Positions 17,212-40,245 of a DNA stretch of 64,000 bases are shown one piece after another. Under the pieces are notes generated by a model. It was not told where the DNA came from. It searched no databases and saw only the letters and a list, made by a program, of their open reading frames with translations. The DNA comes from Streptomyces sp. RPT161 (GTDB lineage Bacteria; Actinomycetota; Actinomycetes; Streptomycetales; Streptomycetaceae), in contig NZ_JAPZVN010000008.1 of the NCBI RefSeq assembly GCF_027533845.1, positions 124,001 through 188,000 on the forward strand, in the 5' to 3' direction. Position numbers and translations under genes: made by a program. Each line of letters starts with the position of its first letter. Position 1 is the first letter of the stretch.

Positions 17212-19626
17212 TCACCTGGCCTCCAACGTCAACCGCGGCTTGGGTCCGTCGACCCGACCCGTCGGCGGACGCCTGGAGCCCGCCTGATACGGCAGCGGCC
17301 ACTGCGCACCCGGCCCCGAGTAGCCCTGCTCCGCGGCCGCGTGCAGGGTCCAGTTGGGGTCGTACAGGTGCGGACGCGCGAGCGCGCAAAGATCCGTACG
17401 GCCCGCCAGGACAAGGGAGTTCACGTCGTCCCAGGAGGAGATGGCGCCAACCGCGATCACCGGGATGCCCAACTGGTTGCGGATGCGGTCGGCGTACGGC
17501 GTCTGGTACGAGCGGCCGAACGCGGGGCGTTCGTCGGGCACGACCTGGCCGGTGGAGACGTCGATGGCGTCGGCGCCGTGCGCCGCGAAGGCACGGGCGA
17601 TCTCGACCGCGTCGTCGGCGGTGGTGCCGCCGTCCGCCCAGTCGGTGGCTGATATCCGTACCGTCATGGGCCGCTCCGCGGGCCAGACCTCGCGTACCGC
17701 GTCGAAGACCTCCAGGGGGTAGCGCAGCCGTCCGGTCAGGTCACCGCCGTAGCGGTCGGTGCGCTGGTTGGTCAGCGGTGAGAGGAAGCCCGACAGCAGG
17801 TAGCCGTGGGCGCAGTGGAGTTCGAGCAGGTCGAAGCCCGCACGCGCGCCGCGTACGGCGGCGGCCGTGAACTGCTCGCGGATCTCGGTGAGTCCCGCCG
17901 CGTCCAGCGCGTGCGGCACCTGGTTCACCCCGGGCCGGTACGGCAGTGCGGAGGCGGCGGCCAGCGGCCAGTTGCCGTCCGGCAGCGGCTGGTCGATGCC
18001 CTCCCACATCAGCCGGGTCGAGCCCTTGCGGCCGCTGTGGCCGAGTTGCAGGCCGAGCGCCGCCGGGGACTGGCCGTGCGCGAAGTCCACGATGCGCCGC
18101 CAGGCGTCCTCGTGCCGGTCGGTGTAGAGCCCGGCGCAGCCCGGTGTGATCCGCCCCTGCGGGCTGACGCACACCATTTCGGTCATCACCAGGCCCGCGC
18201 CGCCCAGCGCCCGGGCGCCCAGGTGGACCAGGTGGAAGTCGCCCGGTGTGCCGTCGGCCGAGGAGTACATGTCCATGGGCGAGACGACCACGCGGTTGCG
18301 CAGTGTGAGACCGCCCAGCCGGAAGGGGGCGAACATCGGCGGGGTGCCCGGCTCGACGCCGAACTCGGTCTCGACGGCGGCGGTGAAGTCCGGGTCGCGC
18401 AACCGCAGGTTGTCATGGGTGACCCGGCGGCTGCGGGTGAGCAGGTTGAAGGCGAACTGCCGCTTCGGCTGGTCGGCGTACTGGGCCAGTTCCTCGAACC
18501 ACTCCAGGCTGGCCAGCGCCGCGCGCTGGGTGCTCTCCACCACGGCCCGGCGCTCGGCCTCGTAGGCCGCCAACGCCGTGTCCAGGTCGGGTTGTTCCCG
18601 CAGGTTTGCGGCGAGGGCGAGGGCATCCTCCATGGCGAGCTTGGTGCCGGAGCCGATGGAGAAGTGCGCGGTGTGCGCGGCGTCGCCGAGCAGCACCACC
18701 CGTCCTGCCCGCCAACTGCCGTTGGTCACTGTGGTGAACGCCGTCCAGCGGGAGCGGTTGGAGCGCAGCCGGTGGCCGCCGAGCAGATCGGCGAAGACCT
18801 TCTCGCACAGCGCGATCGAGCCTTCCTCGTCCAAGCGGTCGAGGCCCGCGCTCCGCCACACCTCCTCGCGCATCTCCACTATGAAGGTGCTGGCACCATC
18901 CAAATGGGAGCGCGAAGCGCCTCCGTTGAGGGTGGAAGCGCCTCCGTTGAGGGTGGTGGCGGGCGACGGGCGATCATCACTGCGGCGCGAAGCGCCTCCG
19001 TTGAGGGTGGTGGTGGGCGACGGGCGGGCGAAGGGATAGCCGTGCGCCTGCATCAGGCCGTGCGGGGTTTCGGCGATCTCGAAACGGAAGGCGTCCAGGA
19101 CGAGATCGGTGGCCAGCCACACATACCGGCAGCGGTGCGTGGTCAGGCTCGGCCGGAAGACGTCCCGGTACGCCTCCCGGGTCGCGCTGTGCACCCCGTC
19201 CGCGGCGATCACCAGGTCGTGCTCCCGGGCCAACTCGGCGGCTGGCGGCGCGGTTTCGGCGAACCGCAGCCGTACGCCGAGGCTCCGGCAGCGGTCGTGC
19301 AGCACGGCGAGCAGCCGGCGGCGGCCGAGCGCGGCGAAGCCATGGCCGCCGGAGCGGATGACCGTACCGCGATGGGACACGTCGATCGCGTCCCAGCGTA
19401 CGAACTCCTCGCTCAGCGCCCGGTACACGACCGGGTCGGCGTGCTCGATCCCGCCGAGGGTCTCGTCGGAGAGGACGACTCCGAAGCCGAAGGTGTCATC
19501 GGGGGCGTTGCGCTCCCAGACGGTGATCTCCCGTGCCGGGTCCAGCCGTTTGAGCAGCGCGGCGGCGTACAGGCCGCCGGGGCCCGCGCCGATCACCGCG
19601 ATCCGCCGCGGACCTGCCGCGGTCAC
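17212..19626 (-). CDS. FAD monooxygenase / old-yellow-enzyme fusion (2-aminobenzoyl-CoA monooxygenase/reductase type)
   Basis: Bifunctional flavoprotein (804 aa). Residues 1 to about 400 are a class A FAD monooxygenase (IAVIGAGPGGLYAAALL near the N-terminus, DG motif VIAADGVHS, GD motif VVLLGDAAH). About 430-780 is an FMN-dependent OYE-like reductase barrel (NRVVVSPMDMYS, QLGHSGRKGS, ELHCAHGYLLSGFLSP). This architecture is that of 2-aminobenzoyl-CoA monooxygenase/reductase, which hydroxylates and then reduces the ring; databases often call it salicylyl-CoA 5-hydroxylase. GTG 19626 overlaps the hydratase stop as GTGA. Oddly, residues about 197-241 are an in-frame insert of short DNA repeats between GYPFA and STFIVEM. 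Confidence 0.87.
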   Translation of the reverse strand: MTAAGPRRIAVIGAGPGGLYAAALLKRLDPAREITVWERNAPDDTFGFGVVLSDETLGGIEHADPVVYRALSEEFVRWDAIDVSHRGTVIRSGGHGFAALGRRRLLAVLHDRCRSLGVRLRFAETAPPAAELAREHDLVIAADGVHSATREAYRDVFRPSLTTHRCRYVWLATDLVLDAFRFEIAETPHGLMQAHGYPFARPSPTTTLNGGASRRSDDRPSPATTLNGGASTLNGGASRSHLDGASTFIVEMREEVWRSAGLDRLDEEGSIALCEKVFADLLGGHRLRSNRSRWTAFTTVTNGSWRAGRVVLLGDAAHTAHFSIGSGTKLAMEDALALAANLREQPDLDTALAAYEAERRAVVESTQRAALASLEWFEELAQYADQPKRQFAFNLLTRSRRVTHDNLRLRDPDFTAAVETEFGVEPGTPPMFAPFRLGGLTLRNRVVVSPMDMYSSADGTPGDFHLVHLGARALGGAGLVMTEMVCVSPQGRITPGCAGLYTDRHEDAWRRIVDFAHGQSPAALGLQLGHSGRKGSTRLMWEGIDQPLPDGNWPLAAASALPYRPGVNQVPHALDAAGLTEIREQFTAAAVRGARAGFDLLELHCAHGYLLSGFLSPLTNQRTDRYGGDLTGRLRYPLEVFDAVREVWPAERPMTVRISATDWADGGTTADDAVEIARAFAAHGADAIDVSTGQVVPDERPAFGRSYQTPYADRIRNQLGIPVIAVGAISSWDDVNSLVLAGRTDLCALARPHLYDPNWTLHAAAEQGYSGPGAQWPLPYQAGSRRPPTGRVDGPKPRLTLEAR
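18910..19026. repeat. Three direct repeats inserted in the FAD domain
   Basis: The 19-mer GAAGCGCCTCCGTTGAGGG occurs at 18914-18932, 18935-18953 and 18989-19007. Copies 2 and 3 also share the tail GGTGG(C/T)GGGCGACGGGCG. Copies 1 and 3 share the head GCGC. Each contains the small hairpin CCTC-CGTT-GAGG. Translated, they give repeated TLNGGAS units inside the monooxygenase. The core GCCTCCGTTGAGG recurs at 40231-40243, suggesting a dispersed element. Confidence 0.8.
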
Positions 19627-40229: not shown

Positions 40230-40245
40230 TGCCTCCGTTGAGGCA
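40230..40245 (-). repeat. Hairpin TGCCTC-CGTT-GAGGCA sharing the repeat core
   Basis: Perfect 6-bp stem and CGTT loop, 14 bases past the stop of the upstream K+ importer gene. Thirteen bases (GCCTCCGTTGAGG) are identical to the core of the three repeats at 18910-19026. It could be a weak terminator and a solo copy of the same dispersed element. Confidence 0.45.

Follow-up and report, generated by a model that had tools for sequence, protein, structure and literature searches.

A short dispersed repeat with a covarying GNA mini-hairpin occurs in frame in genes of Streptomycetaceae and Amycolatopsis

REP sequences, which are linked to RAYT proteins and the Y1 transposases of IS200/IS605, are short strand-asymmetric repeats that carry a hairpin and occur in many copies and in tandem clusters. 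In actinobacteria, the MIRU of mycobacteria are short repeats with variable tandem number that are located at the stop/start junctions of operons. The Rickettsia palindromic elements, at ∼150 bp, occur as tolerated in-frame insertions in many unrelated genes, according to the parts of a 2024 review of prokaryotic MITEs used here (PMC10969869), whose main text contains neither the word Streptomyces nor the word Actinobacteria. Another source (PMC2759123) describes the enterobacterial RU-1, RU-2 and RU-3, of 103-168 bp, as MITE-like small mobile sequences with open frames inside genes.

Here we describe an insert in a gene located within the window, by which we mean the whole stretch of 64,000 nucleotides that was analysed. 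The repeat that makes up this insert is dispersed, enters genes in frame, is present or absent at orthologous sites, varies in the length of its arrays and has a stem that covaries. We consider it quite likely that the insert represents local outgrowth of a mobile-type family of units ∼49-60 nt in length, which would have spread most likely as folded single-stranded DNA. Features of the locus are given below, where R1 denotes a sequence-only model built from 16 units and the coordinates of copy A are those of the R1 matches G000:C118:142910-142935 and 142937-142972, minus 124000.

17212..19626, minus strand: host gene, 804 aa (804 codons), with FAD_binding_3 and Oxidored_FMN domains and a match to NF006101
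18892..19029, minus strand: inserted loop, residues 200-245 (46 residues), net gain 126 bp, from orthologue comparison and model pLDDT
18910..18972, plus strand: element copy A with duplicated core (R1 positions 4-29 at 18910-18935 and 10-45 at 18937-18972)
18914..18956, plus strand: 21-bp local tandem duplication inside copy A (TRF: period 21, 2.0 copies, 100% match)
18982..19030, plus strand: element copy B, complete (R1 positions 1-49; 56.1 bits, E 2.5e-14)
18984..18996, plus strand: mini-hairpin of copy B, GGCGC-GAA-GCGCC, read from the sequence and backed by family-wide stem covariation
19005..19017, plus strand: G-run tract of copy B, GGGTGGTGGTGGG, a possible G-quadruplex (G positions 97-99% conserved over 124 units)

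The host gene encodes an FAD monooxygenase fused to an OYE-type reductase. It had been called an aryl-CoA monooxygenase/reductase in a preliminary description of the locus, a name that is imprecise, and the best curated name is bifunctional salicylyl-CoA 5-hydroxylase/oxidoreductase (1200.6 bits for NF006101 against a cut-off of 1078). The alignment of NF006101 to the protein is split into two stretches, the better of which begins at residue 243, and VioD structures likewise align in two stretches, the better of which ends at residue 200. Relative to the sister genome G001, the gene has gained 126 bp, or 42 residues, in place of a four-residue turn, close to the “about 45” residues proposed earlier. 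The reading frame stays open throughout the insert, which conforms to the in-frame insertion in the FAD domain that had been described.

An orthologue search covered 121 Streptomycetaceae genomes, 80 of which gave a match, and loci were built for the best 30 of these 80. Exactly four residues separate the YP[YF] and [SA]T[FVA] motifs in all 27 readable loci (L184-L211, 28 loci, L206 being unreadable), so homologues do run on directly, as had been expected. The same spacing is 46 residues in the window gene, 17 in the sister genome G002 (L183) and 4 in G001. Extra DNA at the loop site amounts to 126 bp in this genome (G000), 39 bp in G002 and 0 bp in G001, all multiples of three. A loop whose length differs between related genomes is therefore supported. 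The 39-bp insert of G002 is a decayed remnant whose middle is gone; because it retains GGCGCGAAGCGCC and the right end, the insertion is probably older than the split between G000 and G002. Comparison of these sequences suggests that the insert probably grew after the split in one lineage and decayed in the other.

An AlphaFold2 model built with 18 sequences (mean pLDDT 63.5, pTM 0.52) represents most of the FAD domain well and most of the reductase half poorly. Residues 203-243 have pLDDT values below 50 and lie between the strands formed by residues 190-198 and 246-253, placing the insert as a loop between two strands of the FAD domain. As judged from this model, a four-residue turn of the FAD domain has probably become a disordered surface loop, which probably does nothing useful for the host enzyme.

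Within the insert, the 19-mer GAAGCGCCTCCGTTGAGGG is present in exact copies at 18914-18932, 18935-18953 and 18989-19007, on the plus strand and thus antisense to the gene. Allowing up to three mismatches, there are three matches in the window where 0.06 are expected, and none of 100 shuffles reached three. The “three copies” of the preliminary description therefore exist as exact 19-mers, but the number of whole repeats is two: two ∼49-nt elements lie 54 bp apart, and one carries the 21-bp internal duplication. The true length of the element and its anatomy of hairpin and G-runs go beyond that description. A recurrence of the core claimed at 40231-40243 did not hold up, since this site lacks the upstream hairpin and the G-runs and is absent among the R1 matches of its own genome. 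Positions 40233-40244 (CTCCGTTGAGGC) are a 12-mer match with one mismatch, of which 0.45 are expected per window. The surrounding stretch at 40230-40245, TGCCTCCGTTGAGGCA, forms a short hairpin by self-complementarity and has only a resemblance to the repeat core.

Across the family, the element is composed of a five-pair stem, mostly a GNA loop, and then near-invariant G-runs, GGGYGGYGGYGGG. Counted from the first base of the GCGCC arm, the conserved stretch extends ∼21 nt to the left and 37 nt to the right (117 scan copies), and the conserved unit is ∼49-60 nt in length. In the window's genus (124 units, counting tandem copies), the G-run positions are 97-99% G and the intervening spacers are mostly T or C. 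With one copy taken per array (92 of 93 arrays), the stem is paired in 87.8% of cells, compared to a shuffle mean of 70.7% and a largest value of 75.2% in 2000 shuffles, and pairing falls to 37-65% when the stem is slid, although relatedness is left out of account in the shuffles and the derivation of the stem from the consensus gives it an advantage over the slid controls, such that these figures are not probabilities. The case for a hairpin rests on covariation because several different complementary stems occur (GGCGC/GCGCC 30, GGCCC/GGGCC 15 and GGAGC/GCTCC 5). Folding energy does not set the element apart: the consensus folded as single-stranded DNA does no better than shuffles (z 0.80, 0.09 and 0.69), and thermodynamic folding was dropped as evidence.

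In g1, 54 of the 74 arrays that have a good stem carry a GNA loop; at scan loci, where the search pattern had fixed the right arm, the corresponding figure is 106 of 116. Loops of the GNA or GNNA type on at least two G-C pairs form extraordinarily stable DNA mini-hairpins, and GCGAAGC melts at 78 degrees, according to passages of PMC4686876. The opposite strand would carry TNC loops, and therefore the hairpin signature marks one strand. No terminal inverted repeats are seen: the logo shows no mirror symmetry between the two ends, and the window stretch holds no inverted pairs of 6 nt or more. Inverted pairs in L009 (6) and L015 (4) mostly involve flanking sequence. No covariance model of Rfam 15 matched at E values up to 1 in six loci totalling 33,048 bases. 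Variant copies in genus g8 (L022 and L028) hold an extra segment with GGGGTCCCCC in the G-run half, perhaps another inserted repeat.

The 16-mer core of the element occurs four times in this genome, seven times in G001 and four times in G002. It is present in 11 of 394 genomes of the bacterial family, compared to 2 of 394 for the pattern read backwards, and one or two single matches (L020, L025) look like chance. With 150 candidates scored per genome, R1 gives at least 46 matches in this genome at E ≤ 0.01; at E ≤ 0.1 there are at least 54, and at least 84 and 74 in the two sister genomes. In 1,588,268 bases from two contigs of the same genome, a profile of 128 exact-pattern copies recovers 19 copies of at least 15 bits, and a profile of 124 units of the genus, some taken from these very contigs, recovers 28; the reversed sequence yields none with either. 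Very roughly, this extrapolates to ∼90-135 copies per genome, from contigs that were picked for length.

Matches at E ≤ 1e-5 are present in 25 of 61 Streptomycetaceae genomes, representing 9 of 17 genera. The richest are the window's genus (20, 63 and 46 matches) and genus g8 (20 and 26). A scan of named genomes revealed at least 118 loci with copies, 107 of them from Amycolatopsis among the matches listed, and five named genomes carry matches at E ≤ 1e-5: three of Amycolatopsis (15, 10 and 3), Streptomyces antioxidans (8) and Allosalinactinospora (10). A dispersed repeat family that enters genes is therefore real, as the preliminary description had supposed, although its label as a “Streptomyces” family is too narrow given the abundance in Amycolatopsis. 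Spread on phages or plasmids was considered and rejected: the phage sequences searched gave no match, and the plasmid search gave one record, in which a 2.8-Mb replicon of Streptomyces sp. BHT-5-2 matched at 83%. Some contigs of G002 end at element arrays (L270, L271 and G002:C33:35-186), which suggests that arrays break assemblies and are hence undercounted.

Arrays were classified relative to genes by a codon-usage score trained on the window (99 arrays from Streptomycetaceae and 104 from scan loci, with 11 arrays at locus edges dropped). At a threshold of 20 bits, 20 of the 83 arrays from Streptomycetaceae and 7 of the 104 from scan loci are in frame inside a gene, two pairs of which (L006/L011 and L083/L173) are, by reading, the same site in two species; in-frame arrays below 20 bits (L215, L025 and L020) are excluded from these counts. 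The 27 arrays are oriented in both directions, 15 sense and 12 antisense. Genes of the MurD, PurK, tRNA-synthetase, epimerase and formyltransferase types are among those entered, and, judging by the protein sequences, the hosts are likely to include trpS, purU, galE, gcvP, hemB, hisB and thrC. Eight of the proteins were tested with Pfam. A domain match runs across the insert in a class I W/Y tRNA synthetase, a formyltransferase, a short-chain dehydrogenase and a PLP enzyme, and in PurK, a glycosyltransferase, an epimerase and MurD the insert falls at domain edges or between them.

Five of the six frames of the consensus unit are open, and those that are mostly used encode a linker rich in Gly, Ser and Thr. 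Every one of the 15 same-strand insertions has the reading ...SASVEGGGG..., though a second frame is open, and 10 of the 12 opposite-strand insertions read TLNGG, out of three open frames. This preference fits a filter for flexible, polar linkers. Moreover, all 19 unit spacings of in-frame arrays are multiples of three; spacings of 52, 53, 55 and 56 are confined to other arrays, and 54 is common in both classes. In Amycolatopsis deserti, one copy (L107) is out of frame and seems to disrupt a gene for a short-chain dehydrogenase.

Orthologous sites were assessed by comparing the flanks of 71 arrays, mostly from G001 and G002, with part of G000, which gave 30 comparisons, 8 labelled empty and 22 occupied. 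Six of the eight are true empty orthologous sites (87-97% flank identity); of the other two, L241 lacks orthology and L276 is occupied but diverged. Further filled/empty pairs exist, mostly more diverged. Six of the 22 occupied labels re-find the same G000 locus, leaving 16 sites occupied in both species, which makes current mobility no more than a possibility. Among the differences, G001 has three units ahead of a hisB-like gene where G000 has none (net 160 bp), and at L254 the insertion lies immediately behind the start codon. Array length also varies at shared sites: the single unit in a histidine kinase gene of G000 corresponds to three in G002 (net 114 bp), and in MurD the array of G001 exceeds that of G000 by 45 bp. 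No clear target-site duplication is seen in the filled/empty pairs, most of which differ around the junction.

Other copies lie directly after stop codons between co-directional genes, that is, at operon junctions (for example L001, L245 and L233). Where coding flanks share a strand but a phase change or stop intervenes (26 arrays), 24 arrays are, by reading, at gene junctions, one forms a C-terminal extension (L075) and one is in what looks like a broken gene (L107). The left edge of the element is abutted by a TANNNT box, followed by ATG or GTG at leaderless spacing, in 22 of 105 scan copies compared to 1.0 at shifted positions; the 105 copies comprise 104 from Amycolatopsis and one from Streptomyces antioxidans, and all 22 positives (within L066-L170) are from Amycolatopsis, where some are, by reading, the same site in two species. 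The box lies 0-3 nt from the left edge, and on the right side, where the box was scored by itself, a TANNNT box is found in 2 of 105 copies. At Streptomycetaceae loci the box abuts 1 of 23 copies. The box is already present in the unfilled allele at two of three compared sites (L096/L147; L121 and L082 versus L104), and it is not evident in the unfilled allele of the third, the distant pair L145/L062. Many Amycolatopsis copies within L064-L181 (for example L069, L105 and L114) are nested in longer hairpin-like repeats, GCGCCCCAATGTGGC...GCCACATTGGGGCGC, which are apparently terminator-like and often lie just after TTGAAT.

The abundance of copies at operon junctions and next to the promoter −10-like boxes of Amycolatopsis would suit a regulatory DNA element, such as a binding site for a protein or polymerase, that is kept for its usefulness and has coding copies as by-products. 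We regard this as unlikely, because the box preceded the element at two of the three sites compared and is nearly absent from Streptomycetaceae copies, and because regulation does not readily account for long tandem arrays or for copies in frame. An element that acts in RNA, as a processing or binding hairpin in transcripts, would account for the covarying stem, and copies at operon junctions would indeed be transcribed. However, in-frame copies occur in both orientations, and transcription would thus not yield one and the same RNA strand at every site, and the Rfam models found nothing in the six loci searched; we consider this explanation rather improbable.

The perfect 21-bp duplication and the 54-bp spacing might instead indicate a minisatellite that was born in the host gene by slippage and has no wider family. 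Near-identical units that share the hairpin and the G-runs are found at dozens of unrelated loci, in this genome and in others, which refutes this reading and leaves it a negligible chance of being correct. An assembly or sequencing artefact, to which the arrays at contig ends in G002 could point, is almost certainly not the cause, given that a degenerate remnant occupies the same gene position in G002 and that other sites recur in independent assemblies.

The preferred reading is a mobile-type repeat that probably spread through these genomes. One element would have entered the turn between two β-strands of the FAD domain in the common ancestor of this genome and G002, because the remnant lies at the same place in G002 and the site is empty in G001 and in more distant orthologues. 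Tandem duplication may then have expanded the array here and a contraction may have shortened it in G002, which would produce the observed difference. Insertions into loops would survive because the consensus unit is open in five frames and linker-like in those mostly used, and damaging ones would be purged by purifying selection, as the bias in frame and position suggests. The location of the GNA mini-hairpin and the G-run tract on the same strand is consistent with spread as folded single-stranded DNA, on which an enzyme might act in trans; this enzyme may be lost or of another kind than those sought.

A Y1 transposase was rejected as the mobiliser, as Y1_Tnp is found in none of three genomes of the genus and in 5 of 14 control genomes. 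The Y2 transposase model PF04986 gave no match, and the control genomes likewise gave none. No neighbouring gene recurs widely, with the largest cluster representing 4 of 91 loci. In contig C1, a presumably ispH-like gene that is enclosed by two neighbouring copies was considered as a partner and rejected. More tentatively, the repeat could be an actinobacterial transposing element moved as single-stranded DNA by an enzyme that recognises the GNA mini-hairpin and an adjacent G-quadruplex; it might target DNA that is melted or open to access, for instance at promoter −10 boxes and at gene junctions, with linker-like frames that would let it pass through essential genes.

In-frame insertion of small DNA, best known from Rickettsia, is thus seen in large-genome soil actinobacteria, where the genes entered include those for cell-wall synthesis, tRNA charging and purine metabolism. 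The covarying GNA mini-hairpin provides a structural handle toward finding the mobilising enzyme, and related species with differing unit numbers in one gene are natural experiments on tolerated loop size. Gene callers and structure predictors should expect such linkers.

A search of the open-access literature showed no description of such a family among the papers listed. Small gene-invading dispersed repeats are a known kind, and the architecture seen here was matched to none of the named families compared. It shares a conserved hairpin, here with a covarying stem, with REP/RAYT and IS200/IS605 elements, but differs in its GNA loop and G-runs, in its frequent coding insertions and in the lack of a Y1 transposase in the three genomes. 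Like MITEs, the units are small, non-autonomous and dispersed, but no matching terminal inverted repeats or clear target-site duplications are seen. By description rather than sequence, they resemble MIRU in that part of the copies occupy operon stop/start junctions, and differ in that copies also enter coding sequence and promoter-proximal sites. The RU-1, RU-2 and RU-3 elements, as portrayed in the source cited and again compared by description rather than sequence, are larger and MITE-like, and the likeness lies in open frames inside genes. The Rickettsia palindromic elements, as characterised in the parts of the review cited, are likewise small dispersed repeats found in frame in unrelated genes. 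They are longer and belong to another phylum, whereas the present unit has one short hairpin on one side and G-runs on the other and is also common outside genes; this comparison, too, is by description rather than sequence. In its in-frame insertions the repeat works in the way that the Rickettsia palindromic elements do, by analogy and with no claim to membership.
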